From Cytophagales bacterium (lineage in GTDB: Bacteria > Bacteroidota > Bacteroidia > Cytophagales > Cyclobacteriaceae), in contig JAFLBR010000002.1 of the NCBI GenBank assembly GCA_017303795.1, forward strand, positions 62,001 through 126,000: a stretch of 64,000 bases of DNA, written 5' to 3'. Within the stretch, counting starts at the first letter, position 1. Each line of letters starts with the position of its first letter. Position numbers and translations under genes: made by a program. A model generated the notes under the pieces. The model saw nothing but the letters and a program-made list of their open reading frames with translations, had not been told where the DNA came from and made no database searches. Positions 10,220 through 48,663 of this stretch are shown here, piece by piece.

Positions 10220-10235
10220 TGTCCGCCAGTGGGCA
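10220..10235. promoter_or_regulatory. Candidate NtrC-type enhancer site 1
   Basis: TGTCCGCCAGTGGGCA, an imperfect palindrome 22 bases upstream of the regulator start, in the divergent gap toward the HlyD gene. It matches the site at 37870-37885 at 13 of 16 positions. A looser related palindrome lies at 10243-10257. Placement suggests autoregulation or cooperative binding with site 2. Confidence 0.6.
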
Positions 10236-10310
10236 ATATTAGTACCGAAATCGGGACGGCCCTGTTTATGGCGTTTTCAAATGTTTTGTGGGTTCAAAGA
10301 TAACAATCTG

Positions 10311-10326
10311 CGTCCGCAATCGGACA
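10311..10326. promoter_or_regulatory. Candidate NtrC-type enhancer site 2
   Basis: CGTCCGCAATCGGACA contains the perfect inverted repeat GTCCG-CAAT-CGGAC. Its end is 74 bases before the TGGCAC element at 10400, the same distance as at the two other loci. This is the best-formed copy of the motif. Confidence 0.7.
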
Positions 10327-10399
10327 TATCCGTTCACATCTGAACTTGATAAATTCTCAAACCAGTGGATAAATGGCGTTTTAGTGGATAGAAACCGGT

Positions 10400-10414
10400 T
10401 GGCACACTTGTTGG
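10400..10414 (+). promoter_or_regulatory. Candidate sigma-54 promoter of the HlyD gene
   Basis: TGGCACACTTGTTGG matches the sigma-54 form TGGCAC-N5-TTGC except for the last base (G for C). The same 15-base form with one change occurs at 12712. It lies 46 bases from the HlyD start, leaving a leader of about 35 bases. Confidence 0.6.
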
Positions 10415-10460
10415 CAACGGAGCAGGGCACAAACTATTTTGACCCCTTTGTTTTAAGCGC

Positions 10461-11708
10461 ATGGACAAGAAAATTGATAAGAAGTTCTGGACTATTAAGC
10501 GAATTGCTACGTACGGAGGTATTGCTTTGCTGGTTGGGTTTATAGCCTACCAGTTTATTTTTGCTGATCGCAGATCAACTTTTAAAACCGATAAAGACAA
10601 ACTGACCATTGCCACGGTGCAACGAGGAGAGTTTAAAGAATTTATTCCACAAACCGGAACCGTAGAACCAGCCCGTACCGTTTTTCTGGATGCCATTGAA
10701 GGGGGTAACATTAAGCGTATTGTTAGCGAAAGCGGTAAGATGTTGAAGAAGGGCGATGTGATTCTGGAACTTACTAACTTAAATCGCGAGCTAACGGTTT
10801 TGCAACAGGAAGCTTCATTTAACGAAAGTATTAACCGTGCGCGTGAAACCAAACTTGTGATTATGCGCAACGATTTGGAGCAGCAACAACAACTTGCGTT
10901 GATTGAGAATCAATTGCAAATACTGGAACCACAGTATCAGCGCCAGAAACAATTGTATGAAAAGAAACTGATTGCCAAGCAGGAGTTTGAGCAAACAGAA
11001 GCTAACTACAAATATAACCTTGAGCGGAAAAAAATTACATACCAGGCATATCGTGCCGATTCAATTGACAGAATTCGTCAGTTAAAGTTTACAGCTGAAT
11101 CGGAACAGAAGATGATGGTGAGTTTAAATAACCTTTCTAAAATTTTGGATAACCTGGAAATAAAAGCCCCGATAGATGGCCAACTTTCTACGCCACATTG
11201 GGAGATAGGACAAGCCGTAACCCAAGGGCAGCGGTTAGGTCAGGTAGATATTGTAGGTAGTTTTAAAGTCCGGGTGCCGATTGACGAATTATATCTGCCT
11301 AAAATTTCGGTAGGACTTCCGGCTTCAACCAGTTTTGCCAATAAAGATTACATGCTGGCTATTACATATATCTATCCCACCATTCAGAACGGACGGTTTG
11401 AAGTGGATATGGAATTTCAAGGCGATACACCACAAGGCATAAGAAGAGGGCAATCGTTGCGCATGCGCATTGAGTTGGGCCAGGCATCGGAAGAATTGTT
11501 GTTGCCTGTTGGAGGATTTTATAAAGACACCGGTGGTAATTGGGTGTTTGTGTTGGATAGCGACAACAAAGCCGTGCGCAGAAATATTAAGCTGGGCCGC
11601 AAGAACAGCGAAAACTTTGAAGTACTGGAAGGATTGCAGCCGGGCGACCGCGTAATTACCTCTTCGTACGAGAATTTTGGAAACAACGAAGTATTAATCT
11701 TAAACTAG
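10461..11708 (+). CDS. HlyD/MacA-type periplasmic adaptor of an ABC exporter
   Basis: A 415-residue membrane-fusion protein: one N-terminal span (about 17-36), a split lipoyl domain, a long alpha-hairpin rich in Gln and Glu (about 110-225), and beta-barrel plus membrane-proximal domains (APIDGQLSTPHWEIGQAVTQGQRLG and the closing GLQPGDRVITSSYENF). It bridges an inner-membrane ABC permease to a TolC channel. The ATPase begins 129 bases downstream. The regulator gene is divergent upstream and the gap holds two enhancer-like sites and a sigma-54-like promoter. Confidence 0.9.
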   Translation: MDKKIDKKFWTIKRIATYGGIALLVGFIAYQFIFADRRSTFKTDKDKLTIATVQRGEFKEFIPQTGTVEPARTVFLDAIEGGNIKRIVSESGKMLKKGDVILELTNLNRELTVLQQEASFNESINRARETKLVIMRNDLEQQQQLALIENQLQILEPQYQRQKQLYEKKLIAKQEFEQTEANYKYNLERKKITYQAYRADSIDRIRQLKFTAESEQKMMVSLNNLSKILDNLEIKAPIDGQLSTPHWEIGQAVTQGQRLGQVDIVGSFKVRVPIDELYLPKISVGLPASTSFANKDYMLAITYIYPTIQNGRFEVDMEFQGDTPQGIRRGQSLRMRIELGQASEELLLPVGGFYKDTGGNWVFVLDSDNKAVRRNIKLGRKNSENFEVLEGLQPGDRVITSSYENFGNNEVLILN

Positions 11709-11837
11709 ATGCAACTATTTAAGATAGTTGGCGTCTAATAGAATGATTTTATAGAAAAGAGTAACTTTTTAAAAAATAGCCAGTATTCAATAAAACTAAT
11801 CCCATAAGCACATCATCTAACACTTAACCCGAACGTC

Positions 11838-12527
11838 ATGATCAAATTAAAAAACTTAGAGAAGGTTTATACAACAGAAGAAGTTGAAACAACCGCCCTC
11901 AATAACATTAACCTGGAAATTAAAGACGGTGAGTTTGTGGCTATCATGGGCCCTTCTGGTTGTGGTAAGTCAACCTTACTTAATATTTTAGGTTTGCTTG
12001 ATAACCCAACCGGTGGCGAATATCACTTTGGCGAAAACGAAGTTGCCAAATATTCAGAACGCCAGCGCGCGCAATTACGCAAAGGTTCTATCGGGTTTGT
12101 ATTTCAAAGCTTTAACCTGATTGATGAGTTAACGGTATTTGAAAATGTTGAATTACCATTATTGTATTTGAAAGTTCCGTCTGACGAACGTAAGAAAAGA
12201 GTAGAAGAAGTGTTGGAGCGCATGAACATCATGCACCGCAGAAATCACTTCCCGCAGCAACTTTCGGGTGGTCAGCAACAACGTGTAGCCATCTCGCGTG
12301 CTATTGTTGCCAAGCCAAAAGTAATTCTGGCCGATGAACCTACGGGTAATTTGGATTCGGCTAATGGCGAAGAGGTAATGAAACTGTTATCGCAATTAAA
12401 TGAAGAAGGCACAACGGTAATCATGGTAACGCACTCGCCTTACGATGCAAACTATGCACACCGTATTGTTAACCTCTTCGATGGTAAAGTGGTTACTGAA
12501 AATATCAAAGAACAGTTTCACGTTTAA
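11838..12527 (+). CDS. MacB/LolD-type ABC transporter ATPase 1
   Basis: A 229-residue ATP-binding subunit with all motifs: Walker A GPSGCGKS (about 39-46), Q-loop VFQSFNLIDELTV, signature LSGGQQQR, Walker B VILADEPTGNLD, and the switch His in VTHSPYDA. This sequence style is that of ATPases serving FtsX/MacB permeases (lipoprotein, peptide or drug export). It follows the adaptor gene and precedes two permeases on the same strand, forming with them an inner-membrane complex. The second ATPase in the window (48712) is a paralog. Confidence 0.92.
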   Translation: MIKLKNLEKVYTTEEVETTALNNINLEIKDGEFVAIMGPSGCGKSTLLNILGLLDNPTGGEYHFGENEVAKYSERQRAQLRKGSIGFVFQSFNLIDELTVFENVELPLLYLKVPSDERKKRVEEVLERMNIMHRRNHFPQQLSGGQQQRVAISRAIVAKPKVILADEPTGNLDSANGEEVMKLLSQLNEEGTTVIMVTHSPYDANYAHRIVNLFDGKVVTENIKEQFHV

Positions 12528-12633
12528 AAATTGATTTAAGATTTCAGGGAACACGCTTCCTTGATTCGTTCTTCATAGTTTAGGTTTAGGTTAAGATAAA
12601 GCTTGTTCCCCACGGAATGGGCTTTATTGTTTT

Positions 12634-12649
12634 CGTACAGTGCTGTACA
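12634..12649. promoter_or_regulatory. Palindrome at enhancer position before permease 2
   Basis: CGTACAGTGCTGTACA is a perfect palindrome with the same half-site spacing as the CGTCCG sites (8 of 16 identical to site 2). It ends 63 bases before the sigma-54-like element at 12712, that is 11 bases (one helical turn) closer than at the other loci. It may bind the same or a related regulator. Confidence 0.45.
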
Positions 12650-12711
12650 TTTTTGAACAAGCACACGTCTTTCGAACATTTAATACGCTTTGATTTCTGC
12701 TTTTTTCCGCA

Positions 12712-12726
12712 TGGCACATTTGTTGG
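12712..12726 (+). promoter_or_regulatory. Candidate sigma-54 promoter of permease 2
   Basis: TGGCACATTTGTTGG differs from the element at 10400 by one base. It lies 59 bases before the permease start in a 257-base gap after the ATPase gene, so the permease probably has its own regulated start. Confidence 0.55.
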
Positions 12727-12784
12727 GTTTTATATGCAACCTCAACACAAACACAATGTCTTTGCCCCATAAATCCCATCACTC

Positions 12785-15187
12785 ATGATTAAGAATTACC
12801 TGCTCATTACCCTGCGCAACCTGGCCAAGAACAAACTTTTTATTTTCATTAATGTATTCGGCATGGGCATAGCAGTTGCCTGCTGTGTAGTTGCGTATGT
12901 AAACTGGGAGTTTGCTGCTAATTGGGATAAAGACCAATTGAACGGCAAACAAATTTATCGGGTACAGTTTCATCGTAATTTTCAAGATAATCATGAACGC
13001 TACGGAACAGCACCTATGGCTTTGGCTGGCCATGTAAAACAAAATTTTAAAGGTGTTTCTGAAGTGGTGCGATACCAAACTTCTTATAGCGACATCCGCA
13101 TTGGCGATGAAGTATTTGGTACACGAATGATTTTTGCCGACTCCGCCTATTTTAAAGTTTTTACGTATAAGCTGAAATACGGAACCTTCGAAAGTTTTTA
13201 TGACAAAGGCAAAGTAATTATTACCGATGAAGTAGCACTTAAATATTTTAATCGTGAAGATGTTGTAGGCGAACCATTAACCCAAATTGTGTTGGGTAAA
13301 GATGGTGTACGCAGACCAAAAGAATACATTATCGGGGCGGTTACTGAAAAATTACCAGCGAATTCAAGTCTTCAATTTGAAGTAATAGCCCTGTTCGATA
13401 ATTTCTGGGATATTAATCTGGACGAGAAGCAACACGAAACCAGTTGGGCCCGGTGGACAACCTTGTTCATGAAGATTGATAATCCGGATGATGTTGCGGG
13501 AATAAATCAACAACTTCAAAATTATGTTGAGCCTCAAAATCTGGCTCGCGAAGATTTTAAAATCACATCTTATTATTTAGAGAATCTGGATGGTATGATG
13601 AAACGCAATCGGGAAAACCCTCGGGTGAATAACGATTGGATGGGAGGCAGTATCCCCAACGAGGCTGTAGTAATACCCGCTGTAATGGCAGTGCTGTTAA
13701 TGTTGCTGGCGTGTTTCAACTTTACCAATACTTCTATTTCTATTGCAAGCCGTAGGTTAAAAGAAATTGGCATTCGCAAGGTAATGGGTAGTATGCGCAG
13801 CCAGTTGGTATTTCAGTTTCTGGGCGAAAATCTTTTATTGTGTGTACTCGGGCTTGCAGCCGGATTATTATTGGCTGAGTGGTTAGTGCCTGCTTATAAT
13901 TCGTTGTGGAGTTGGTTGAAGTTAGATATTAACTATGCCGATAACATTGGGTTTATCTTATTCTTATTCGGACTTTTATTAATTACGGCATTGATTGCCG
14001 GTGGCTACCCATCTTTTTATGTTACTTCATTCGAGCCTGTAAGCATTTTAAAAGGTAAAGCAAAATTCGGAGGTACCAATTGGTTTACGCGTTTTTTACT
14101 TTTTGGTCAGTTTGTTATTTCCTTGCTTTCCATTGTAATGGGCGTAGCATTTTATCGTAACGGAGAGTATCAACGCAATTACGATTTGGGTTTTGCAACC
14201 AGTGGTGCTATCTCGGTTTGGGTAAATAACGAAGCGGGGTATAATACGTATCGGGATGCACTTTCATCGAATAAAGATATACAGGTAATAGCCGGCACAC
14301 GACACCACATGGGCAATGGTTGGTATAACGATCCGGTAAAATTTGAATCGGTTGAACGCGAGGTTGACATATTTGATATTGGCGATAATTATTTTGAAGC
14401 CATGGACATGACCTTGCTCAGTGGCCGAAATTTTGTGAAAGATTCTGAAACTGATCGGAAGGAATCTGTTTTGGTTTCGGAAGAGTTTGTACGCAGATTT
14501 GGTTGGACGGATAACCCAATAGGTAAACGCATTGTGTGGATGGATACCACACAACTTTTTGTAGTAGGTGTAATTAAAGATGTTTACCCCGGTGCGTTGT
14601 GGAGTCCGATTAACCCGGTTATGCTACGGTATGCAGCACCTTCCAAATACCAGCAAGTAGTAGTAAAAGCCGACCCTACCAAGATGGCTGATGTCGATAA
14701 GTTTATGGAGGCGAAGTGGAAAGAAGTTTTTCCGAATACAGTGTATTACGGTCGCTGGGTAGATGAAGAGATGAAAGAAACTAATGAAATCAATGCCAAC
14801 ATTGTTACCATGTTTGGATTTCTGGCAGTATTCTCTACCCTCATGACGTGCATTGGCATGTATTCGCTGGTATCGCTCAACATCGTAAAGAAGATGAAAG
14901 AAATTGGGGTGCGGAAAGTTTTGGGGGCATCATTGCTAAACATTGTAGGTGTAATCAATTTTGAATTTATAATCAATCTGGCTGTGGCAACAATTGCTGG
15001 TGCGGCTGCTGGTTATCTGATGGCTGATATTCTGATGGCCTCTATCTGGAAGTATTACTTGCAGGTAGGATTGCTCAGTCTCGGGCTATCTGCATTGGTG
15101 TTAGTAGTGATTGCCGCGGTTTCAGTAAGCTTTAAAACAGTTTCAACAGCTTCGCTTAATCCTACTAAAACGTTGCGTGACGAATAA
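12785..15187 (+). CDS. FtsX/MacB-type ABC transporter permease (paralog 2)
   Basis: An 800-residue permease with an N-terminal span (about 20-40), large periplasmic domains and two FtsX blocks; the paired motifs RRLKEIGIRKVMGS and KKMKEIGVRKVLGA mark the cytoplasmic coupling helices. It is the first of two permeases downstream of ATPase 1 and its closest functional partner by position. A strong hairpin follows it, so the next permease may be transcribed separately. Start at the ATG at 12785 fits the conserved IKNYLLITLRNL opening. Confidence 0.88.
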   Translation: MIKNYLLITLRNLAKNKLFIFINVFGMGIAVACCVVAYVNWEFAANWDKDQLNGKQIYRVQFHRNFQDNHERYGTAPMALAGHVKQNFKGVSEVVRYQTSYSDIRIGDEVFGTRMIFADSAYFKVFTYKLKYGTFESFYDKGKVIITDEVALKYFNREDVVGEPLTQIVLGKDGVRRPKEYIIGAVTEKLPANSSLQFEVIALFDNFWDINLDEKQHETSWARWTTLFMKIDNPDDVAGINQQLQNYVEPQNLAREDFKITSYYLENLDGMMKRNRENPRVNNDWMGGSIPNEAVVIPAVMAVLLMLLACFNFTNTSISIASRRLKEIGIRKVMGSMRSQLVFQFLGENLLLCVLGLAAGLLLAEWLVPAYNSLWSWLKLDINYADNIGFILFLFGLLLITALIAGGYPSFYVTSFEPVSILKGKAKFGGTNWFTRFLLFGQFVISLLSIVMGVAFYRNGEYQRNYDLGFATSGAISVWVNNEAGYNTYRDALSSNKDIQVIAGTRHHMGNGWYNDPVKFESVEREVDIFDIGDNYFEAMDMTLLSGRNFVKDSETDRKESVLVSEEFVRRFGWTDNPIGKRIVWMDTTQLFVVGVIKDVYPGALWSPINPVMLRYAAPSKYQQVVVKADPTKMADVDKFMEAKWKEVFPNTVYYGRWVDEEMKETNEINANIVTMFGFLAVFSTLMTCIGMYSLVSLNIVKKMKEIGVRKVLGASLLNIVGVINFEFIINLAVATIAGAAAGYLMADILMASIWKYYLQVGLLSLGLSALVLVVIAAVSVSFKTVSTASLNPTKTLRDE

Positions 15188-15208
15188 TTTTTATTCGCTG
15201 TAACATTC

Positions 15209-15329: not shown

Positions 15330-17735
15330 ATGTTCAAAAATTACGTTACCGTTGCCCTCCGAAATATTCTGAAACACAAGTTTTATTCAGCGCTTAATAT
15401 TGTTGGGCTCGCGTTTGGGCTTACCGCCTGCTTTCTGATCGGCTTGTATATCTACGATGAAGTTTCGTACGATAAGTTTCATATTGACTATCAAAACATT
15501 TACAGCATTGGTCTGCATGGTAAAATAGGAGGGCAGGAAATTTACACAGCATCATCATGCCCACCTTTGGCGCAGGCTATGGTAAGTGATATACCGGGTG
15601 TAGAACAAGCTATTCGGGTTAATAACTGGAGAAACATAGTTATAAAGTATGAGGAAAAAGCCTTTACGGAGTCGAAGGTATTGTTGGCCGACTCAAACTT
15701 TTTTGAATTCTTTAGCTTTAAACTTATTGAAGGCGATGTAAAAACCGCTTTGAAAGAACCGGCCACCGTAGTGATTACCACCGAAACTGCTCGTAAATAT
15801 TTTGGGGACTCACCGGCTGTGGGAAAAATTATTACAGTTGGTAACGACAACGAAGCATTTAAAATAACCGGTATAGCCGAGCCAGCGCCCACCAATTCGC
15901 AAGTGCAATTTGATTTTATTTTGTCAGGCGCTTCTGATGATAATTTGAAAAGCGATAGCTGGACAAATAATGGCTTGTACTCGTTTTACCGAAAAAATCC
16001 CAATACCGATGTGGCTGGTATTGATGCCCGACTGCGCGAACTTACCATAGAACACGTGGGGCCAGAGTTTGAGCAAGGGCTTGGCGTGGATTTTAAACAA
16101 TTTGAAAAGCAAGGCGGAGTGTATGCATACTTCTCTTATCCCATGCACAGCAAACATCTTTACCAGACACAACTGGCTGATGGGCTTACACCTTCAAGCG
16201 ATATAAAATATGTTTATAGTATTGGCGCGGTAGGGCTTTTTATTCTACTCATTGCGTGCATCAACTTTATGAATCTTTCTACTGCCCGATCATCGGGCCG
16301 GGCTAAAGAAGTAGGCTTGCGCAAAACACTTGGTTCTGTGCGCTCCAAACTCATTGCCCAGTTTATGTCAGAATCGCTGGTGTATGTTTTTGCTGCGATG
16401 CTTATTGCCATAGTATCGGTTTACCTGTTGTTGCCTTCTTTTAATTTACTGGCTGGCAAAGCTCTGGGCTTTAGTCTTATGCTACAACCTGTTGTGTTAG
16501 TGAGTGTGATAGTTGTTTTTATAATTGTGGCACTACTCGCTGGTAGTTACCCGGCTTTTTATCTTACCTCATTCAATCCGGTTGAAGTGCTGAAAGGAAA
16601 GGTACGATCAGGTATGAAGAGCAAAGGTATTCGCAGTACACTGGTAGTAGTTCAGTTTGCAATTTCGATCACGCTTATTATAAGCACGTTGGTGGTTTAT
16701 AATCAATTAAACTTTTTGCGTGAACGTAATATTGGTTTAGACAAATCGGGAGTTATTGTAATTCGCAACACCAGCCGCCTGGCCAATAACCGTACTGCTT
16801 TCCGCGAAAGCGTAAACGGGCAAACCGGTATTGTTAAAACAAGTTTTACCAACAATGTATTTCCGGGTGTTAATAATACTACGGTTTTTAGAGCGGAGAG
16901 TGCCGCGCAGGAACGCATTATGGCTACCTATTATGCTGATTACGATCACATGAATGTTTTGAAGATGGAATTAGCATCCGGTAGATTTTTCTCAAAAGAT
17001 TTTCCTTCTGATTCTACTGCATGTGTAATTAATGAAGCAGCTGTGCGCGAATTAGGTTGGGAGAATCCGCTTACGGAAAAGTTGATTAGTTACAATGGTC
17101 CTTCACCAGTGTCCATGCAAGTGGTAGGCGTTATAAAAGATTTTAACTTCGAATCATTCAAAGCCAATGTAAGACCTTTGGTTATCAGGCTTACTAATAC
17201 GGCCAACAATATGTTGGTGCGGTACGATGGCAAACCCAACGATGCAGTGGCAACCCTTGAGCGCGTTTGGAAACAGAATGCAAGTAACGAACCATTTGAA
17301 TACACTTTCCTGGATCAGAACTTTGATACTTTATTTAAAGAAGAGCAACGCCTGGGGCAATTGTTCACAGTGCTCACCAGTGTAGCCATATTTGTGGCTT
17401 GCCTCGGGTTGATGGGCCTGGCTTCATTCACAGCAGAACAACGCACCAAAGAAATCGGAATCCGAAAAGTGATGGGCGCATCGGTGTCATCAGTTAGTGC
17501 ATTGTTATCGAAAGAATTTATGTGGTTGGTAGCAATTGCATTTGTGTTGGCATCGGCTTTGGCGTGGTACCTGATGGATCAATGGCTGGCATCTTTTGCA
17601 TACCGCATAGAATTAAGCGCAGGTTTATTTGTATTAGGTGGAGCGCTGGCTGCTGGTGTAGCAGCATTAACGGTTAGCTTCCATTTTATAAAGGCGGCCC
17701 GGTCTAACCCGGTAAATTCGCTGCGTTACGAATAA
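15330..17735 (+). CDS. FtsX/MacB-type ABC transporter permease (paralog 3)
   Basis: An 801-residue permease of the same layout as its neighbour: FKNYVTVALRNILKHKFYSA at the start, first FtsX block with GRAKEVGLRKTLGS (about residue 330) and second with QRTKEIGIRKVMGA (about 715). It ends with the NPVNSLRYE tail that recurs in all these paralogs (NPSSTLKYE, NPTKTLRDE, NPVKVLKDE), probably a conserved cytoplasmic end. It sits 142 bases after permease 2. No copy of the enhancer/sigma-54 pair was seen in front of it. Confidence 0.88.
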   Translation: MFKNYVTVALRNILKHKFYSALNIVGLAFGLTACFLIGLYIYDEVSYDKFHIDYQNIYSIGLHGKIGGQEIYTASSCPPLAQAMVSDIPGVEQAIRVNNWRNIVIKYEEKAFTESKVLLADSNFFEFFSFKLIEGDVKTALKEPATVVITTETARKYFGDSPAVGKIITVGNDNEAFKITGIAEPAPTNSQVQFDFILSGASDDNLKSDSWTNNGLYSFYRKNPNTDVAGIDARLRELTIEHVGPEFEQGLGVDFKQFEKQGGVYAYFSYPMHSKHLYQTQLADGLTPSSDIKYVYSIGAVGLFILLIACINFMNLSTARSSGRAKEVGLRKTLGSVRSKLIAQFMSESLVYVFAAMLIAIVSVYLLLPSFNLLAGKALGFSLMLQPVVLVSVIVVFIIVALLAGSYPAFYLTSFNPVEVLKGKVRSGMKSKGIRSTLVVVQFAISITLIISTLVVYNQLNFLRERNIGLDKSGVIVIRNTSRLANNRTAFRESVNGQTGIVKTSFTNNVFPGVNNTTVFRAESAAQERIMATYYADYDHMNVLKMELASGRFFSKDFPSDSTACVINEAAVRELGWENPLTEKLISYNGPSPVSMQVVGVIKDFNFESFKANVRPLVIRLTNTANNMLVRYDGKPNDAVATLERVWKQNASNEPFEYTFLDQNFDTLFKEEQRLGQLFTVLTSVAIFVACLGLMGLASFTAEQRTKEIGIRKVMGASVSSVSALLSKEFMWLVAIAFVLASALAWYLMDQWLASFAYRIELSAGLFVLGGALAAGVAALTVSFHFIKAARSNPVNSLRYE

Positions 17736-35282: not shown

Positions 35283-37757
35283 CTACTCGTCCTTCAACAC
35301 CTTAACGGGATTAGTTAACGCAGCTTTTACCGAATGATAACTTGTAATCAGTATCGCGATAAGCAATGTACCAAGTCCTACACCAAAGAATATCCACACC
35401 GAAGGTGTAATGCGATAGGCAAAATCCTGTAACCATTGTTCCATCAGCCAATAGGCGAGTGGCGCTCCAATTATAAAAGCAATAATTACCAGCATAGTAA
35501 AATTCCGGGTAATGAGGGTAAGTATATCCAACACGCTGGCACCAGAAACTTTCCGGATACCAATCTCTTTGGTGCGTTGTTCCAAGGTGTAAACAATCAT
35601 ACCCAGTAAGCCTAAGGCAGCAATCAAAATGGCAAGCGATGCCATTACAGTAAGTATTCCGCCAAAGCGCTGTTGCGTTTTAAAAGTATCAGCAAAGGCA
35701 TCGTCCACAAATTCATATTGCAGGGGTGTATCGCCAGCATGTATTTTCCAGAGTGTATTTAATTCGGCAAATGTTTTATCCCAGCCTTCAGTGCCTTGTG
35801 GATTAATTCGCAACAGGATGTATTTTTTATCGCCAAGGCCAAACAGGTTAGCCGATTTGTTATGGAATACAGCCATGGGCTCGATCGGGCTCTCTAACGA
35901 CCAGAAATTGAAATCGGCCATAATACCGATCACTTCAAATTTTATTTCGCCTCCGGGCGCTTCTATCTTTTTGCCAATGGCAGTTTCATCTACGGCCCAG
36001 CCAATCCGTTTTACAGCCGTTTCGTTTAAGATAACACGTTCGTAATCGCCACCATTGTCGGCAATAAAATTGCGACCATATTTTATTTTAATACTCATAG
36101 TGGGAATGAAGGCTTCATCGCCACTGGTATAGTTAAGGGCAAACGTCTGGCTGTTCATACCATCGGCACTAAACTTATCGCCACCCCACACGCGTGGTGG
36201 TACCGAAGTACAAGCACTGGCGTTGATAACACCACTTACCTGTTCAGTTGCCTTTACAAGTGTTTCCGGATCTTTAACCAGATTTACATGATTCAGCACC
36301 AATAAGTTTTCTTTATCGAAGCCAAGTTCTTTTTCGGTTACGTAATTCAATTGTTGAAACACAATGGCCGTGCATGCTACCAGTATAATGGAAACACTGA
36401 ATTGAAACACAACTAATCCATTGCGAAATGCTTTACCCTTGGTACCGGCTTTCAGTTTTCCTTTCATTCCTTCTACCGGATGAAATCCCGTAAGGAAATA
36501 AGTGGGATAGCTGCTGGCCACAATAGCCATAACAACCACAAGTGCAACAATAGAGAGAACCAGTCCGCCATCGCTAAACAGATTGAAAGAAATCTGTTGA
36601 CCCGTTAAGATATTAAACGCGGGCATTGCCAACTGAATAAGTGCAAGCGCAGCAACCAGGGCAATGCCACAAAAGGCGAGTGCTTCCAGAAAATAATTAA
36701 GGCTTAATTCTTTTCGGCCTAAGCCTAAGATTTTCCGAACGCTTGCTTCTTTAACCCTGCGTGTAAATTGTGCGGTAGATAAATTCATAAAGTTGATGCA
36801 CGCCAGCAGCAGAATAAAAATGGCAATGCCCATCATGGCATATACCATCTTTTTATTGCCGGGTTCATTCAATCGATTATAAACTACTTGTTCAGGCAAA
36901 TGAATGCTTAACATCGGTTGCAGAAACAAATCCCACTTCTTTCCGGATTTGATGTATTCATCATACGACACGTTCATAATCCGCTGCAGCGTTTCTTCTG
37001 CATACTTGCGTGGAATAGTTGTCAGCTTGTTTTTTGTATTAGCTATGTCTGTGCCTTCGCGCAAGCGCACATAGGTTTCCAGTTGTGTAAATACCCAGCT
37101 CCAATGTAATCGGGCAATGGTTGGAAAGCTGCTCATGGAAAGCAAAACATCAAACTCGATATAAGAATTATCGGGTGTATCTTTTACTATGCCGGTAACT
37201 TCATACGTTTGCTGATTATCGAACGTACCCAATCGCACCAATTTGCCGATTGGGTTTTCATCGCCAAAATATTTTTTGGCTGTGGATTCGCTCATCACCA
37301 TCGTATTGGCTTGCTTCAATACATGGTTTGGTTCGCCATGAATTAACGGAAAGCTAAACATGGCAAAGAAGTTGGTGTCGGCAGCCAGAATTTTATCTTC
37401 TTCAAATACCAGTACTTCGCCTTTGGCATTGGTATAACTGATAATAAAATTGCCGGGTGTGTGAATGCTGGTTAGCAACTCAGCTTCCGGAAGTTCGGCC
37501 CGCAGGGCAGTAGCCACGCCTGGCCCGGTAGATGAAAACTGATTGTTGTCGTTCTCGCCCCAGATAAAAGTTTGATTGATCCGGTAAATGCGTTCGGCAT
37601 GGTTGTGAAAGCTGTCGTAGCTCATCTCGTGCCGCACATACAAGTAAATCAGCACTGCGCTGGAAATACTTACGGTTAAGCCAAGCAGGTTAATAATACT
37701 AAAGAGCTTTTGGCGACTTAGGTTTCGAAGAAACAGCAGCACGTAATTCCGGATCAT
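35283..37757 (-). CDS. FtsX/MacB-type ABC transporter permease (paralog 4)
   Basis: An 824-residue permease with the same double FtsX layout: RRVKEASVRKILGL (first block, about 335) and QRTKEIGIRKVSGA (second, about 735), tail NPVKVLKDE. No ATPase is next to it. Upstream it carries both an enhancer-like palindrome (37870) and a sigma-54-like element (37783-37797) at the spacing seen ahead of the HlyD and ATPase 2 genes, which links it to the NtrC-type regulator 25 kb away. Confidence 0.88.
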   Translation of the reverse strand: MIRNYVLLFLRNLSRQKLFSIINLLGLTVSISSAVLIYLYVRHEMSYDSFHNHAERIYRINQTFIWGENDNNQFSSTGPGVATALRAELPEAELLTSIHTPGNFIISYTNAKGEVLVFEEDKILAADTNFFAMFSFPLIHGEPNHVLKQANTMVMSESTAKKYFGDENPIGKLVRLGTFDNQQTYEVTGIVKDTPDNSYIEFDVLLSMSSFPTIARLHWSWVFTQLETYVRLREGTDIANTKNKLTTIPRKYAEETLQRIMNVSYDEYIKSGKKWDLFLQPMLSIHLPEQVVYNRLNEPGNKKMVYAMMGIAIFILLLACINFMNLSTAQFTRRVKEASVRKILGLGRKELSLNYFLEALAFCGIALVAALALIQLAMPAFNILTGQQISFNLFSDGGLVLSIVALVVVMAIVASSYPTYFLTGFHPVEGMKGKLKAGTKGKAFRNGLVVFQFSVSIILVACTAIVFQQLNYVTEKELGFDKENLLVLNHVNLVKDPETLVKATEQVSGVINASACTSVPPRVWGGDKFSADGMNSQTFALNYTSGDEAFIPTMSIKIKYGRNFIADNGGDYERVILNETAVKRIGWAVDETAIGKKIEAPGGEIKFEVIGIMADFNFWSLESPIEPMAVFHNKSANLFGLGDKKYILLRINPQGTEGWDKTFAELNTLWKIHAGDTPLQYEFVDDAFADTFKTQQRFGGILTVMASLAILIAALGLLGMIVYTLEQRTKEIGIRKVSGASVLDILTLITRNFTMLVIIAFIIGAPLAYWLMEQWLQDFAYRITPSVWIFFGVGLGTLLIAILITSYHSVKAALTNPVKVLKDE

Positions 37758-37782: not shown

Positions 37783-37797
37783 TCAAAGGCTGTACCA
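37783..37797 (-). promoter_or_regulatory. Candidate sigma-54 promoter of permease 4
   Basis: On the minus strand TGGTACAGCCTTTGA, a TGGYAC-N5-TTG element 26 bases before the start. The -12 part is weaker than usual (TTGA for TTGC). Support comes mainly from the 73-base distance to the palindrome upstream. Confidence 0.5.
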
Positions 37798-37869
37798 GTA
37801 CCTAATCAATTGAATTTATACGGGTTACGTGGTTTTGAAATTGCGTGGTGTTCATTTCAGTTATGCAAC

Positions 37870-37885
37870 CGTCCGCCAGCGGGCG
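37870..37885. promoter_or_regulatory. Candidate NtrC-type enhancer of permease 4
   Basis: CGTCCGCCAGCGGGCG, 13 of 16 identical to the site at 10220. It lies 113 bases upstream of the permease start and 73 bases from the sigma-54-like element, in a 317-base gap shared with the divergent symporter gene. The rest of the gap shows no gene. Confidence 0.6.
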
Positions 37886-43540: not shown

Positions 43541-43810
43541 TTAAAATCTATCAATAATAACCTTCCCAATCTTACTTAAAACCCCTGTTGAAAACTTGGG
43601 TTGAAGTAACAACTGCTGCGATTCGCTTTGCGATGAATTATCCAGCATCCAGGTAGTAATGGCAATAATCATGGCTACCAGAATACCAGCCACCAGAGTC
43701 AGGTCTTTATGTGTGATTTTAAACTGCACCGCCTGCTGGTTTCCAAAACCAGTGCCATTAGCCGCAAGGCTCGGTTTTTCTGATTTTTTGAGGTTTTGGG
43801 TTGGTTTCAT
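43541..43810 (-). CDS. Small single-span membrane protein, unknown
   Basis: An 89-residue protein with a polar N-terminus (SEKPSLAANGTGFGNQQ), one membrane span (LVAGILVAMIIAITTWML, about 39-56) and a short outer tail. No family is recognised. It is divergent from the thioredoxin-like gene, whose promoter must lie in the shared 132-base gap. Confidence 0.6.
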   Translation of the reverse strand: MKPTQNLKKSEKPSLAANGTGFGNQQAVQFKITHKDLTLVAGILVAMIIAITTWMLDNSSQSESQQLLLQPKFSTGVLSKIGKVIIDRF

Positions 43811-43942
43811 GTTCAGTTTTGTACAATTCTGTTGGTCTTATGCGGACAGCCGGTTACAGCGGCCCGGTGTTTGTTAATTAAACCAGCGGAACTTGTTTTC
43901 TTTTTACATTTGTTACAAGGTTTGACTCATAATTACAGATTT

Positions 43943-44518
43943 ATGAAAAAATATTTGTCGGTTTTGCTTTTCGCGATGGTTGGCCAGGTGTGGGCGCAAG
44001 AAAAAACAGAATCTTCCGTAAAGTGGATAACGTTTGAAGAAGCGGTTGAGAAATCGAAAACTGAAAAACGCAAGATTTTTATTGATGTCTATACCGATTG
44101 GTGTGGCTGGTGTAAGGTGATGGATAAAAACACTTTTACCGATCCGAAGATTGCCGCGCTCCTGAACGAAAAATTCTATGCGGTGAAGTTCGATGCCGAG
44201 CAAACTGCCGATGTAGTTTTCAAGGGTACAACTTTTAAGTTTGTGCCTTACGGGAATAAAGGCTCGCACCAATTAGCGATGGCATTACTGAACAACCAGA
44301 TGAGCTATCCCAATTTTGTATTTCTGGACGAAGAGTTTCGGATTATTCCGGTTATTCAAGGCTACCAATCATTGCCAGGTTATCGCAAGCCAGAAGACTT
44401 CCACATTTTTGTAAACTTTGTGGGTGGCGATTTTTATAAAGCCAAGTTGTTTCAGGATTATCAGAAGGAATATAAATCTCCTTATGGAGCTCCAACTACT
44501 TCCTCCGTAGGAAAGTGA
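43943..44518 (+). CDS. Secreted thioredoxin-family protein
   Basis: A 191-residue protein with signal peptide MKKYLSVLLFAMVGQVWAQ and a thioredoxin fold: FIDVYTDWCGWCKVMDKNTF carries the active CGWC pair (about residues 53-56), then YPNFVFLDEEFRIIPVIQGY. This DUF255-like type is common in the Bacteroidota periplasm, probably as a disulfide reductase. ATG 43943 begins the signal peptide; an earlier in-frame start would add an unlikely 49 residues. Confidence 0.88.
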   Translation: MKKYLSVLLFAMVGQVWAQEKTESSVKWITFEEAVEKSKTEKRKIFIDVYTDWCGWCKVMDKNTFTDPKIAALLNEKFYAVKFDAEQTADVVFKGTTFKFVPYGNKGSHQLAMALLNNQMSYPNFVFLDEEFRIIPVIQGYQSLPGYRKPEDFHIFVNFVGGDFYKAKLFQDYQKEYKSPYGAPTTSSVGK

Positions 44519-44540
44519 TTCTCAAGTAATAAGCCAATAA

Positions 44541-44567
44541 AAAAGCCACGCAATTTGCGTGGCTTTT
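44541..44567. terminator. Bidirectional terminator
   Basis: A stem of AAAAGCCACGCA / TGCGTGGCTTTT with a 3-base loop, A-run on the left and T-run on the right. It separates the convergent thioredoxin-like gene and the 44-residue gene. Confidence 0.9.
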
Positions 44568-44591
44568 CTTTTATAGATTTAAGGTTAGGTA

Positions 44592-44726
44592 TTAATCGTG
44601 CTTCTTCTCGTTTTTAGAGGTCTTTGCTTTATCGAGGTAGCCTACGGCTGCAACAAAGCCAATGATTACGGCTACAATAATTACAAACAGGTTAGCTCCG
44701 TCTCCTACATTTTGTTCGAAAAACAT
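44592..44726 (-). CDS. 44-residue single-span membrane protein
   Basis: MFFEQNVGDGANLFVIIVAV begins a protein with one span (about 13-30) and a basic, Lys-rich tail ending KNEKKHD. It is well spaced from its neighbours and flanked by a terminator, as a real gene would be. The charge pattern suits a respiratory or cytochrome-oxidase-associated small subunit (CcoQ-like), but no such genes are adjacent and this is only a resemblance. Confidence 0.6.
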   Translation of the reverse strand: MFFEQNVGDGANLFVIIVAVIIGFVAAVGYLDKAKTSKNEKKHD

Positions 44727-44806
44727 AATCGTTTGGTGTTAAATTCTAAGGTCAAATGTAAGGGTTCTGAGTAAAAATTCAATACCAAATTCAGGAGTTG
44801 TTGTTA

Positions 44807-45349
44807 TTAAATTCCCAACTCCACTTTATTCGCCCTGAGTACTTCAATTATAAAGGCAATATGCTCAGTAAGATCTACCTCCAGCAACTCTACGCCCTTA
44901 TAAACCTCATCGCGTTCTACCTTGGCGGCAAAACCTTTGTCTTTCAGTTTCTTAATGACTGATTTGGTTTCTAATGTGGCAATGCCTTCAGGGCGTACCT
45001 GTGCGCAGGCTACAATAAAACCGGTTAGTTCATCGCAGGCTAATAAGGCTTTGTCTAAACGTGTTTCGTAGGGCACATTCCATTTGGTATAATGGGCAGA
45101 AATGGCATGTGCAATTTCTGTTTCACCCATGGCAGTAAGCTTTTCAACAATAACCTGCGGATGTTTTTCCGGGTAGGCTTCGTAGTCGGCATCGTGCAGC
45201 AAGCCGGCAATGGCCCAAGCTTCTTTGTCTTCACCAAATTTCTCTGCATAAGCTTCCATCACCAACTCGATGGTGCGCATATGGCGAAGTAAACTTTGGC
45301 TTTGGGTAAGGCTGCTCAGAATACTACGGGCTTCGGTACGGTTGATCAT
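44807..45349 (-). CDS. HD-domain phosphohydrolase-like protein
   Basis: A 180-residue HD-domain protein: RHMRTIELVMEAYA, then the metal motif in AIAGLLHDADYEAYPEKHPQ and HAISAHYTKWNVPYETRLDKALLACDELTGFI. This is the HDIG/YfbR-like single-domain type acting on small phosphorylated substrates. Its start overlaps the stop of the TPR gene by four bases, so they are co-translated. Confidence 0.85.
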   Translation of the reverse strand: MINRTEARSILSSLTQSQSLLRHMRTIELVMEAYAEKFGEDKEAWAIAGLLHDADYEAYPEKHPQVIVEKLTAMGETEIAHAISAHYTKWNVPYETRLDKALLACDELTGFIVACAQVRPEGIATLETKSVIKKLKDKGFAAKVERDEVYKGVELLEVDLTEHIAFIIEVLRANKVELGI

Positions 45350-46500
45350 TTGCGTCTAACTGCAGTAATAGATTTTCTTTTTGAATAAAACAGGTTGAAG
45401 CCCCCAAGTACCAGGCCTAAGCCGAGTATTACAATTGTAATGATCATTCTGGTTTTCTGTAGTTCAAGCGCATTGATTTCGGCTTCTGTTTTTAGTGATT
45501 CCATTTCACGCTCTTTCTCCTGCAAATCCATCGCTATTTCCATCTGGGCAATTTTACGACTACTCTCTTCTCCATAAATTTTTTCTTTCACTACATCATA
45601 ACGCAGCATGGTTTCGTAGGCTTCTTTCATTTTGCCTTGCTTGGAATAATTAAGAGCCATGCTTTTAAGAATGTTTGGCTCAAAAATGAATGCTTGCATC
45701 TCCCCACTCATCGTCATGGCACTGTCCAGGTAGGCTTGTGCAGTTTTAAACTGACCAGCTCGTGCATATACTTCCCCTAAACTGCTCAGCACATTTAAGG
45801 TTAGCAAATTGTCGTTTTCCTTGCGGGCAAGTTTTAAGGTGCGTTCATAATATTCTGCTGCCCGCTGCAAGTTGCCTTGCTTAAAATAAATATTGCCAAT
45901 GTTGTTGATAGGATCGGCAAACGGTTGACCTTTTCTTTCTGCAAGTTGAAAGGCTTCAGTATAATATTTAAGTGCCTGCTCTTGTTCCTGCACATTATTA
46001 TGAAGGTTACCCAGGTTATTCAACGACCTGATCAGGTTGGAGGAGTCACCTATTTCCATAAAGTGCTTGTGTGCATCTTCATAATATTTCATGGCCTGGC
46101 CATGATCCTTTTTGAAGGAATAAATATTTCCAATATTACTCTTGGTAGCGGCAATGCCTTCCTTGTTATCCAATTTGGTATAAATCTGAAGGCTGATGAG
46201 ATAGTACTCCAGTGATTTATCCAACGCACCCTGATTACGGTATGCCACCCCTAAATTGTTGTACGAGGCGGCCATTCCTTTTTGATCGTCAATTTCAGTG
46301 GCCAGGGCCAATGCCTGTCGGGTGTATTCAATTGCTTTTACCGGATCGGAATTGATGTAGGCCCGAAAGAATTCATTCAGGGTTTTAACTTTCAGATCGC
46401 CCTTGGCAGTTTCAAGCGCTCTTTCAAGACTATCGATTTTAGTTTGGGCCACGGCAACCGAAACACTAAAAGCCAGTAATACAATGTAAATACCCTTCAT
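45346..46500 (-). CDS. Tetratricopeptide-repeat protein with signal peptide and C-terminal span
   Basis: A 384-residue protein: signal peptide (YIVLLAFSVSVAVAQ), about seven TPR units (for example SYNNLGVAYRNQGALDKSLE and SLNNLGNLHNNVQEQEQALK), a coiled coil (EEKIYGEESSRKIAQMEIAMDLQEKEREME) and a span near residues 355-373 with a basic end. This is the sensor half of Bacteroidota TPR histidine kinases or LuxR proteins, but it ends after the membrane anchor without a kinase. Probably a scaffold. Shares an operon with the HD gene. Confidence 0.85.
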   Translation of the reverse strand: MKGIYIVLLAFSVSVAVAQTKIDSLERALETAKGDLKVKTLNEFFRAYINSDPVKAIEYTRQALALATEIDDQKGMAASYNNLGVAYRNQGALDKSLEYYLISLQIYTKLDNKEGIAATKSNIGNIYSFKKDHGQAMKYYEDAHKHFMEIGDSSNLIRSLNNLGNLHNNVQEQEQALKYYTEAFQLAERKGQPFADPINNIGNIYFKQGNLQRAAEYYERTLKLARKENDNLLTLNVLSSLGEVYARAGQFKTAQAYLDSAMTMSGEMQAFIFEPNILKSMALNYSKQGKMKEAYETMLRYDVVKEKIYGEESSRKIAQMEIAMDLQEKEREMESLKTEAEINALELQKTRMIITIVILGLGLVLGGFNLFYSKRKSITAVRRK

Positions 46501-46621
46501 AAAGCTAAATTATCTGCTAAAATTAAGAATTATCTACTAACCCGTATTCAGGCCGTTCGTATAGGGGTATATTGAACTTTCAATTTTGTTAAGCATCTTT
46601 CAACTTTCAATCCTTTACCCT

Positions 46622-47113
46622 ATGCGCACACTCACTCTTTTTATCTGTGGATTTCTTGGAATTGTTGCCACTCAGGCCCAATCTCAACAAAATGAACAAG
46701 CCGTTATGGAGCCTATTGTAAAGTTGTTTACCGGCATGAATAAAGGCGACAGCGCAATGGTGCACAGCGCTTTTGCCAAAGAGATAACGATGGCTACTGT
46801 TACTAAAGATAAAGCCGGTAATGTGGTGGTGAGACGTGAAAATTCGTTGGCTGGTTTTTTAAAAGCTATTGCCACGCCTCGTGCTGAGCCGTTGAACGAA
46901 CCAATCTGGAATACCAAAATTGAAGTGGATGGAAATTTTGCGCAGGTGTGGACGGACTATGCATTTTACATCGGCAAAAAATTTAGCCACTGCGGGGTAG
47001 ATGCATTTCAATTGGTAAACAATGGCTTGGGTTGGAAGATTATTCACCTGGCCGATACCAGACGCACAGCAGATTGTAATATCCCGACAACAGTTTCAGA
47101 TCAGTTTAAATAA
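46622..47113 (+). CDS. Secreted NTF2-like (SnoaL/DUF4440) protein
   Basis: A 163-residue protein with a signal peptide (LFICGFLGIVATQAQS) and an NTF2 fold: IVKLFTGMNKGDSAMVHSAFA, IEVDGNFAQVWTDYAFYIG and VDAFQLVNNGLGWKIIHLADTRR. Family members are ligand-binding or isomerase-like. ATG 46622 begins the signal peptide. Its stop overlaps the next start (TAATG), so both are coupled. Confidence 0.82.
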   Translation: MRTLTLFICGFLGIVATQAQSQQNEQAVMEPIVKLFTGMNKGDSAMVHSAFAKEITMATVTKDKAGNVVVRRENSLAGFLKAIATPRAEPLNEPIWNTKIEVDGNFAQVWTDYAFYIGKKFSHCGVDAFQLVNNGLGWKIIHLADTRRTADCNIPTTVSDQFK

Positions 47114-47613
47114 TGCAGGCAATGAAATATCTTGTAATACTTTTCTTTCTTACGCTAAGTGTTGTGGCAGGTGCGCAAACTATAACTACCGTAATTCTGG
47201 TTCGCCATGCTGAGAAAGGAACCGATGATCCTAAAGATCCTGAACTATCTGAAGCGGGTAAACAACGTGCGCAGCATCTGGCTCAAGTATTAAAAGAAAT
47301 CAAAGTTGATGCAATCTATTCAACGCCTTACAAGCGTACTCGTAATACAGTCACACCATTAGCCGAAGCAAAAGGAGTTTCTGTCTTAAATTATAATCCC
47401 TCCAAAAAGGAAGAGATAGATCAGATGCTGCAAAAATTTGCTGGCGGAACAATTGTAATAGCAGGTCATTCCAACACGGTGCCGGACCTTGCCAATTACC
47501 TTACCGGCAAAACCGAGTTTCATAATTTTGACGACAGCGATTATGATAACTTGTTGGTTGTAACGGTGGTTGAAAAAGGAAAGAATGCGAAAGTGATTTG
47601 GTTAACGTACTAA
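47113..47613 (+). CDS. Secreted histidine phosphatase (SixA/PGAM-like)
   Basis: A 166-residue protein with a signal peptide and a phosphoglycerate-mutase-like fold: catalytic VILVRHAEKG (RHA/G motif), IYSTPYKRTRNTVTPLAE and IVIAGHSNTVPDL with the second His. It is truncated like SixA-type enzymes. Start at 47113 overlaps the previous stop; the ATG at 47122 also fits. The substrate is unknown, likely periplasmic. Confidence 0.88.
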   Translation: MQAMKYLVILFFLTLSVVAGAQTITTVILVRHAEKGTDDPKDPELSEAGKQRAQHLAQVLKEIKVDAIYSTPYKRTRNTVTPLAEAKGVSVLNYNPSKKEEIDQMLQKFAGGTIVIAGHSNTVPDLANYLTGKTEFHNFDDSDYDNLLVVTVVEKGKNAKVIWLTY

Positions 47614-47618
47614 TAGCA

Positions 47619-48026
47619 TTACAGATTCTTTTTGTACTTCACTAGCGTAGCTTTAATCATCTGGCCTTTGGTGTACTTGGTTTTGGAACCAAAAATTCCG
47701 AGAAAGCCCCGCCTTCTTCCGGCACCAGCCGCAGCACCACCAGTTGAACTCCCGGTATTTGTCAATGCTATTTCATCGAACAAAATCGCATCGGCACCTT
47801 TTTCTTTTACGCGCGTTACAATTTTATTCTGCACCTTATCAGAATTACGTCTTGCTGTAACCTCGTAAGTAGCTTTGCCCATAATTTCATTCGCCTCACT
47901 TATATCGCTTTCGCGGAAGTAAATTTCTACAGTATCCGTTGGCGGATAGGTGCGGCCGTAATAGATTATTTTATTAGCGCACGAAGCCATACTTAAAAGA
48001 ATACCAAGAAATACAAATGATTTCAT
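47619..48026 (-). CDS. Lipoprotein of unknown function
   Basis: A 135-residue lipoprotein: MKSFVFLGILLSMASCANKI has the lipobox with Cys16. The body (YPPTDTVEIYFRESDI, YEVTARRNSDKVQNKIVTRVKEKGADAILFDEI) looks like a YbjQ/DUF4156-type heavy-metal or envelope-stress small domain, followed by a Gly/Ser/Arg-rich linker and a basic end. The ATG at 48026 is used; the 44-residue upstream extension overlaps the divergent gene. Confidence 0.75.
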   Translation of the reverse strand: MKSFVFLGILLSMASCANKIIYYGRTYPPTDTVEIYFRESDISEANEIMGKATYEVTARRNSDKVQNKIVTRVKEKGADAILFDEIALTNTGSSTGGAAAGAGRRRGFLGIFGSKTKYTKGQMIKATLVKYKKNL

Positions 48027-48092
48027 TTTACAGATTTTAAAATGCGAATGTAAGGGCTTTCTTTTTTCCAGCCATAACGCTAAATTCGAAAC

Positions 48093-48509
48093 ATGACAGC
48101 CAGCCGTTTGATTTTCGGTTTTTGTTTGCTGTTGTGTGCAGAGGTATTTGCACAACAACCGGAAGAACTTCGTAAAAGCATTTACTTTAATGGGGGTAGT
48201 TTCGATATCGATGAGTTTCAGGTTGAAATGCTTTCCGATTGGCTCGATTCGATTCCCAATCTTTTAGATAAATATCAGATTCAACTTATAAGCCACACCG
48301 ATCCGATAGGAGGTAAGGAATACAACCAATGGCTTTCGCAGATGCGCAGCCAGGAAGTCTTTCAGTTGTTACTCGATAAAGACATTCCCGAACAATCCAT
48401 CTCCATAAAAGACTGGGGCCTCGAGAATCCGGTTTACACCAATCAAACCTATCGCGGCATGCGGTTAAACCGAAGAGTGGATGTTATTCTACATCCGTTG
48501 GTTTATTGA
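48093..48509 (+). CDS. Short OmpA-family periplasmic protein
   Basis: A 138-residue protein with a signal peptide (LIFGFCLLLCAEVFAQ) and an OmpA-like peptidoglycan-binding domain: SIYFNGGSFDIDEFQ, IQLISHTDPIGGKEYNQWLSQMR and NRRVDVI (with the NxRR pattern). No outer-membrane barrel precedes it, so it is a stand-alone domain. It is divergent from the lipoprotein gene. Confidence 0.85.
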   Translation: MTASRLIFGFCLLLCAEVFAQQPEELRKSIYFNGGSFDIDEFQVEMLSDWLDSIPNLLDKYQIQLISHTDPIGGKEYNQWLSQMRSQEVFQLLLDKDIPEQSISIKDWGLENPVYTNQTYRGMRLNRRVDVILHPLVY

Positions 48510-48559
48510 GACTATGAGATTTAATTTCAGGCTTCTTCCTTAAAAAACATCAGGCCAGC

Positions 48560-48575
48560 CGGTCGCTTTCGGACA
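48560..48575. promoter_or_regulatory. Candidate NtrC-type enhancer of ATPase 2
   Basis: CGGTCGCTTTCGGACA, 12 of 16 identical to the site at 10311 (CG..CGC..TCGGACA). It ends 74 bases before the sigma-54-like element at 48649, exactly as site 2 relates to the promoter at 10400. A half-site (ACGGACGT) follows at 48589. Confidence 0.6.
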
Positions 48576-48648
48576 CCTTTTTTCAGTTACGGACGTGATT
48601 TTGTGCAACTAATCGCGTATTTGCGCGTCTAAATCAACATTACGGTCT

Positions 48649-48663
48649 TGGCATGTTATTGGC
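48649..48663 (+). promoter_or_regulatory. Candidate sigma-54 promoter of ATPase 2-TolC
   Basis: TGGCATGTTATTGGC has GG and GC separated by exactly ten bases, the strict sigma-54 spacing. It lies 49 bases before the ATPase start. The 200-base gap after the OmpA-like gene is otherwise empty. Confidence 0.65.

Follow-up and report, generated by a model that had tools for sequence, protein, structure and literature searches.

Genes for the parts of a putative tripartite exporter lie scattered over a 64,000-nucleotide stretch of a Cytophagales bacterium genome (hereafter the window; C12:62001-126000 of a 4.87-Mb assembly in 24 contigs), and several of them are preceded by the same two-part switch. 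The switch consists of a tandem pair of short palindromes, termed dyads, followed by an element that resembles a sigma-54 promoter. We regard it as likely that the scattered genes with this shared switch form the sigma-54 regulon of a tripartite exporter with dispersed parts. The switch is kept in dozens of related species, and the genes are probably turned on together, via sigma-54, by a sensor-regulator pair.

Activation would begin with phosphorylation of the response regulator (RR) by the sensor histidine kinase (HK). RR would then bind the tandem GTYCR-N4-YGRAC dyads, which lie two helical turns apart, and its AAA+ ring would remodel sigma-54 polymerase at a TGGYAY-N5-TTG element that lies about 43, 53 or 64 bp downstream on the same helical face. 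The genes reached in this way would be an adaptor-ATPase-permease operon, a second ATPase gene with TolC, and several permease genes on other contigs, while RR and HK would also be switched on from a divergent promoter. Such co-induction would supply adaptor, ATPase and channel alongside permeases that have no ATPase gene nearby.

The double dyad and promoter of hlyD

Eighty loci with a relative of RR were compared, the nearest named records being metagenome-assembled genomes of Cyclobacteriaceae and Cytophagales. The adaptor gene hlyD has a usable start at 76 related loci, which together with the window give a set of 77 upstream regions. In the 130 bases ahead of the hlyD promoters stand GTCCG-N4-CGGAC and, six bases on, GTTCA-N4-TGAAC in tandem. 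The double-dyad consensus is matched at all 20 positions in 75 of the 77 upstreams and at 19 in the remaining two, and every one of them has TGGCAY-N5-TTGG at 42-147 bases ahead of the ATG (77/77). Between the second dyad and TGG lie 43 bases in six cases, 51-55 in 70 and 65 in one (54 in the window); these gaps are steps of about one helical turn. Motif columns are kept across the set and the spacers between them are visibly less conserved. ABC1 upstreams, which lie inside the operon and serve as a control, never score above 15 by the hlyD matrix (0/76).

An earlier sequence-only reading of the window had drawn attention to a 16-bp palindrome, followed by a TGGYAY element, ahead of hlyD, permease 4 and the ABC2-TolC pair. 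Both parts can be read in the window sequence at each place, and the distances from palindrome to TGG (74, 73 and 74 bp, respectively) are confirmed. The palindrome is a real site, but the enhancer unit comprises two such dyads in tandem (GTYCR-N4-YGRAC, 6 bp, GTYCR-N4-YGRAC); the second, 20 bp downstream at hlyD and ABC2-TolC and weaker at permease 4, had been overlooked (table 1).

The same switch before ABC2-TolC and permeases 2 and 4

Upstream regions were scored with weight matrices derived solely from hlyD upstreams, which are independent of the permease matches elsewhere in the genome. The null comprises 3000 random stretches, with a 99% level of 11.9 and a 99.5% level of 17.6; the stretches were taken from the window and L121-L140, which themselves hold regulon sites, and the null is therefore conservative. 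The scattered targets were documented in genomes assigned to the window's genus.

The ABC2-TolC pair gives the clearest result, with double dyad and promoter above the 99.5% level at all 21 loci, the window's own included (scores at least 23.4, gap 52-55). As a separate observation, many ABC2-TolC upstreams share extra blocks between enhancer and promoter (TGCAACTAAT and CGTCTAA; window 48600-48645) that the hlyD upstreams do not have.

Permease 4 orthologues (48-100% identity) reach the 99% level at 11 of 16 loci, the window's own gene and four others falling below; among more distant homologues, at 33-38% identity, none of eight does. The second dyad is stronger in orthologues such as those of L222 and L234 than in the window. 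Frames like ABC1 or ABC2 were sought near permease 4; the only ones found in the window were ABC1 and ABC2, each at a distance of over 10 kb.

Permease 2 lies behind ABC1, and in its upstream region TGGYAY-N5-TTG is present in 35 of 68 cases, against 0 of 68 in the antisense control. A dyad stands upstream in 33 of the 35 promoter-bearing regions of relatives, as found with a loose pattern that had no separate control. The gaps cluster at 41-43, 51-54, 63-64 and 71-73, with R = 0.88 at 10.5 bp (n = 34, the rows being related by descent). In the window, the dyad has the form TGTACA-N4-TGAACA and overlaps the palindrome marked in the sequence-only reading, which had placed this site one helical turn closer to its promoter than the others. 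That placement is not upheld: measured from the promoter-nearest dyad, the gap is 53 at permease 2 and 54 at hlyD. Permeases 1 and 3 were rejected as direct targets, the sites being absent from their upstreams; permease 3 is probably read from upstream.

The switch elsewhere in the genome

The genome holds 59 MacB_PCD permease genes, counted as first-domain matches, and 54 of their upstreams were scanned with the hlyD-trained matrix. Five of 21 permeases of about 800 residues score above the 99.5% level, whereas none of 25 in the class of about 870 residues and none of eight in the class of about 400 reaches even the 99% level (5/21 versus 0/25 and 0/8; Fisher P = 0.006). Besides permease 2, these five comprise permeases on C22, C20, C21 and C18, and the C18 gene is the first in a row of four. 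A search of 10-19 kb around the four on other contigs revealed no ABC1-like frame.

A sequence profile, likewise independent of the permease matches elsewhere in the genome, was built from 46 sites (18 hlyD, 21 ABC2 and 7 permease 4). They comprise 18 of 69 eligible hlyD sites and the 28 ABC2 and permease 4 sites with a score above 14 and a gap of 51-55. Searched against the whole genome, it gave 13 matches at E<=10, eight of them at E<0.004; 150 of 1670 first-look candidates were scored, so weaker sites may be missed. All eight precede exporter genes or PadR-type regulators that head permease units. Two, ABC2-TolC and hlyD, were in the training set and six were outside it: the permeases on C21 (E = 3.6e-5), C18 (3.0e-4) and C22 (0.0026), permease 2 (table 1), and two PadR-type genes in the C24 array of 870-residue permeases (0.0022 and 0.0030). 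The next match has E = 0.048; it lies at window 43740-43833 on the minus strand (TGGCACTGGTTTTGG) and was set aside, no convincing gene following on that strand, as were matches on C5 and at C21:127225 (E 0.2-0.3).

The looser dyad GNYCG-N4-CGRAC has 45 genomic matches at 41 distinct places, 29 coding and 12 intergenic by scoring of open reading frames, and seven of the 12 intergenic places precede hlyD, ABC2, permease 4 and four other permeases. This pattern was written after some of the sites had been seen, so neither the enrichment nor the binomial values calculated for it are independent, and the count is given as an illustration. Over the whole genome, the dyad (45 versus 128) and the promoter pattern (57 versus 90) are both rarer than their reversed controls.

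The two PadR-type genes head 870-residue units (C24:103285 and C24:125160; L139:7286-7368 and L291:1501-1598), and each has one dyad 53 bp before TGGCAYAATTATTA. A third PadR gene of the same array has the TGGCAYAATTATTA element, and the other eight of 11 scanned PadR-like upstreams have none. It is possible that the PadR sites link the sigma-54 regulon to a second permease class.

Related genomes repeat the arrangement, with the layout kept before orthologous hlyD, ABC2-TolC, permease 2 and permease 4 genes. In G024, a single contig, five of 15 permeases of 700-830 residues reach the 99% level, including the permease 2 and permease 4 orthologues, and none of its five other permeases does (20 upstreams scanned of 26 first-domain matches). 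The sequence-only reading had proposed that a lack of enrichment elsewhere in the genome would refute it; further sites do stand before MacB/FtsX permeases on other contigs.

Shared upstreams could also be remnants of a recent duplication of promoter and gene together, and not a maintained regulon. The permeases are indeed paralogous, the three PadR upstreams of one array look like mutual copies, and the ABC2 upstreams keep blocks outside the motifs too. However, the hlyD upstreams keep their motif columns and not their spacers, the site-bearing permeases on other contigs are just 28-36% identical to those of the window, and the adaptor and ATPase-TolC genes, which are not permease paralogues, carry the same sites. 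We therefore hold duplication to be barely credible as the explanation.

Promoter type

Counted as GG-N10-G, the promoter spacing is identical at all four promoters of the window. Across the aligned sites of three gene families (46 of 46), TGG, A and the G that follows GG by ten bases never vary; these sites were selected by score in a way that favours this outcome. Judged by its sequence, GG-N10-G is the sigma-54 spacing. The sequence-only reading gave the spacing as TGGYAY-N5/6-TTG, but the element at 48649 is TGGCAT-N4-TTG; the constant GG-N10-G spacing explains this difference between N4 and N5. The genome has one match to rpoN (PF04552, E = 1.8e-56), which includes ARRTVAKYRE, which we take to be the RpoN box.

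The promoter half is no evidence by itself. TGGYAY-N5-TTG occurs five times in the window, and TGGCAY-N5-TTG was rejected as a sole criterion, since its 57 genome matches compare with 90 for the reversed control. Dyads that stand upstream of the promoter and are helix-phased to it are the mark of NtrC-type enhancers. This layout, named in the sequence-only reading, was recovered, with tandem dyads upstream and gaps of about 43, 53 and 64 on helical steps.

The regulator, its kinase and the divergent element

Domain searches bear out the earlier proposal that a sigma-54 response regulator and its kinase are encoded beside the first site, where a receiver-AAA+-Fis protein and a PF02518 kinase were found. 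Intramembrane-sensing kinases have two N-terminal transmembrane helices with fewer than about 25 residues between them. HK has this layout: by hydropathy and sequence, its residues 1-65 contain two predicted transmembrane helices separated by about four residues, and the cytoplasmic kinase follows.

RR has the architecture of a sigma-54 enhancer-binding protein, with a PF00158 AAA+ domain, a Fis-type helix-turn-helix and a regulatory domain. Its probable start is the ATG at 10198, in a frame open from 10219, and it carries GENGTGK and, in the loop that contacts sigma-54, GSFTDA. Relatives across the order that lie beside such exporters mostly have GAFTDA, GSFTDA or GAYTDA. In the available portions of the literature, GAFTGA is called invariant in sigma-54 activators (PMC12316311), GAFTDA but not GSFTDA is among the variants expected to keep activity and a GAFTDA regulator is listed with target operons (both PMC4641369), and the activity of a GAFTDA-type loop is left open (PMC10714721). 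Since activity is expected to persist with GAFTDA (PMC4641369), RR is filed, on its sequence, as a probable sigma-54 activator. Against NCBIfam, none of the best 25 of 91 matched models reaches its cut-off for the regulator.

The enhancer also faces the regulator genes. In 76 of 78 RR upstreams it is found no more than 260 bp from the RR start, and 75 of these 76 contain GG[CT]A[CT]-N5-TTG, with C as the next base in 43. The distance from this RR-side element to the enhancer is 54-56 (6 cases), 63-66 (61) or 97-110 bases (8). In G034, from another family (L254), the RR side reads TTGGCACTCTTATTGGG and the hlyD side CTGGCACGGGTATTGGCAG, and 54 and 55 bases, respectively, separate them from a common enhancer. 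Given the conserved RR-side element and the arrangement in G034, a single enhancer probably serves two divergent promoters, and RR probably regulates its own expression. The RR-side element was also considered as a Bacteroidetes sigma-A promoter; its GG-N10-G spacing and the TTGGCAC version in G034 favour sigma-54, without proving it.

Genes of the HlyD, ABC or FtsX type neighbour a relative of RR in 10 of the 14 stretches examined around such relatives (L250-L263), most of which come from other families of the order, the exceptions being L256-L258 and, for HlyD/ABC, L251. The local module is thus widespread.

Table 1. Coordinates of the exporter genes, regulator genes and candidate control sites in the window
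Feature	Position	Strand	Remarks
HK, sensor histidine kinase	7382..8728	-	PF02518, E = 1.7e-24
RR: receiver, sigma-54-type AAA+, Fis-type helix-turn-helix	8813..10198	-	PF00072; PF00158, E = 1.3e-66; PF02954
Divergent promoter-like element for RR-HK	10233..10247	-	CGGTAC-N5-TTGC
Enhancer dyad 1 of hlyD	10311..10326	+	CGTCCGCAATCGGACA; perfect 5-bp arms
Enhancer dyad 2 of hlyD	10331..10346	+	20 bp downstream of dyad 1
Putative sigma-54-type promoter of hlyD	10399..10417	+	TTGGCACACTTGTTGGCAA
HlyD-type periplasmic adaptor	10461..11708	+	nearest DarC
ABC ATPase 1 (ABC1)	11838..12527	+	nearest DarD
Dyad before permease 2	12644..12659	+	TGTACATTTTTGAACA; gap 53 to promoter
Putative sigma-54-type promoter of permease 2	12711..12728	+	ATGGCACATTTGTTGGGT; genome profile E = 8.6e-5
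Permease 2	12785..15187	+	MacB_PCD and FtsX domains twice
Permease 3	15330..17735	+	without a site of its own
Permease 4	35283..37757	-	
Putative sigma-54-type promoter of permease 4	37783..37798	-	CTGGTACAGCCTTTGA
Enhancer dyad 2 of permease 4	37849..37864	-	weak; 21 bp on from dyad 1
Enhancer dyad 1 of permease 4	37870..37885	-	CGCCCGCTGGCGGACG; one mismatched arm pair
Enhancer dyad 1 of ABC2-TolC	48560..48575	+	CGGTCGCTTTCGGACA; two mismatched pairs
Enhancer dyad 2 of ABC2-TolC	48580..48595	+	
Putative sigma-54-type promoter of ABC2-TolC	48648..48664	+	TTGGCATGTTATTGGCC; GG-N10-GC
ABC ATPase 2 (ABC2)	48712..49389	+	nearest DarD
TolC-family outer membrane channel	49398..50735	+	

Weighing the proposed regulon against other readings

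Several observations weigh against a sigma-54 exporter regulon under RR. The hlyD-trained matrix exceeds 15 in just 19 of 68 permease-2-type upstreams, the window's own permease 4 scores 9.5 and so falls short of the 99% level, 16 of the 21 scanned permeases of about 800 residues have no strong site, and the genome profile search recovered neither permease 4 nor the C20 permease. At the -12 element, GG, GA or GT frequently stands in place of GC, and the exact GAFTGA motif is missing, GSFTDA being found in 43 and GAFTDA in 38 of 81 frames with at least 70% identity. Finally, four drafts (G004, G006, G014 and G019) have ABC2 sites and a regulator of the paralogous RR2 type, and no intact RR above 62% identity.

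Dyads of such size are also common operators, and those described here could belong to another regulator, for example a repressor, in which case the TGGYAY elements would not be sigma-54 promoters. Dyad size fits this account, as do the inexact GAFTGA loop and a -12 element that often lacks C. It accords poorly with GG-N10-G in 46 of 46 sites, gaps of 43, 53 and 64 bp, the upstream position of the tandem dyads and the presence of a PF00158 regulator gene next to the best site, and we consider it very improbable.

The scattered sites of the same regulon might instead be read by RR2 (C6:46664, about 62% identical to RR), or by both regulators. Proteins of the RR2 type (60-63%) accompany RR (at least 81%) in 17 of 19 RR-bearing genomes of the genus, the window's own included, and the recognition helices of the two are nearly identical (ELGLTRSSLYRRLEKHGL versus ELGLTRASLYRRMEKYGL). 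The sequence TGTTCATTTTTGAACA upstream of RR2 resembles the permease 2 dyad, and the four drafts point the same way. Yet it is RR itself that the enhancer adjoins in nearly all RR upstreams, and the upstream of RR2 matches the genome profile weakly (E 0.4-0.5). Completeness of the four drafts is 77-87%, with 200-690 contigs each; their apparent lack of RR is thus uncertain and may reflect draft gaps or hint at RR2. Reading by RR2 seems to us decidedly unlikely, and RR remains the favoured regulator of the scattered sites.

Beside TGTTCATTTTTGAACA, the RR2 upstream (L134:10494-10619; C6:46493-46618) contains TGTACGC and TGGCATAATTTTTCC, and it is much alike in G008 and G024. A natural contrast genome is G016, of the same genus (2.8 Mb, 95% complete), in which neither regulator is matched at E<=1e-100. 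Its best TolC relative (TolC was searched in 39 genomes, the window's own included) has E = 5.7e-27, and of its four MacB_PCD matches none belongs to the 800-residue class.

Comparison with known systems

A link between sigma-54 and permeases of this kind has been published as a statistic: predicted sigma-54 targets show an enrichment of COG0577 FtsX-type permeases in several classes, including Bacteroidia, which was termed first evidence (PMC12316311, 2025). The available part of that survey notes that for some organisms the specificities of activators are lacking, and it names no regulator, enhancer or scattered machine for the FtsX link. In Flavobacterium, the sigma-54 regulon is described, in the part of the source available, as comprising genes for protein quality control, envelope stress and gliding (PMC9723704). 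Among the matches listed in the open-licence literature there was no regulator or enhancer of this kind. The statement in the sequence-only reading that no described regulon with this motif was known holds to that extent. The present system offers a candidate regulator and enhancer for that link, and its motif can be used to find targets in other Cytophagales. A shared, conserved switch also suggests which ATPase, adaptor and channel go with which permease, which similarity alone cannot do.

In its parts, the machine resembles DarBCD and MacAB-TolC, with an adaptor, an ATPase, a duplicated or MacB-type permease and a TolC-type channel. By NCBIfam, the permeases come closest to duplicated permeases of the ADOP and DarB kind. 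The scores fall below the DarBCD cut-offs (DarC 189.5 of 450 bits; DarD 290.9 and 240.1 of 375; DarB 71.5 and 119.3 of 700) and those for MacAB (MacB 242 of 966; MacA 41.1 of 342), although the adaptor passes the general RND_mfp subfamily cut-off (143.3 versus 94.9). The earlier claim that the sequence ties together a MacAB-TolC-like machine is supported as regards the shared switch, whereas the likeness to MacAB is one of the parts list only. ADOP (TIGR03434) is similar in length, at about 800 residues, and matches permease 2 over residues 9-800; with 223.5 bits for permease 2 and 285.2 for permease 4, both are below its cut-off of 622.3.

BceS-type kinases are intramembrane-sensing, have two transmembrane helices with a tiny loop, and are linked to FtsX-family transporters; BceR is OmpR-type and not sigma-54 dependent. 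HK resembles BceS in its two helices, its tiny loop and its genetic link to FtsX-type permeases, and the window differs from the BceS/BceR pair in that its regulator is of the sigma-54 type. A more far-reaching proposal, unlikely as it stands, is a mix-and-match exporter in which a shared adaptor, two ATPases and one TolC would serve interchangeable, scattered permeases co-induced through sigma-54, HK would read the working state of the permeases by Bce-like flux sensing, and the GSFTDA/GAFTDA loop and the unusual TTGG -12 element may have evolved in concert. If true, this would place Bce-like flux sensing in a Gram-negative bacterium, acting through an NtrC-type regulator.

The closest likeness in regulation is to the NtrC, ZraR and AtoC regulons, which share the receiver-AAA+-Fis regulator, the tandem dyad enhancer and a divergent promoter-like element facing the regulator genes; the putative promoters resemble the -24/-12 type. 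Unlike those regulons, the targets in the window are scattered exporter parts, the loop is GSFTDA/GAFTDA, the -12 element is often GG and the kinase has almost no periplasmic loop. We class the system as a probable NtrC-type sigma-54 regulon whose targets are unusual.

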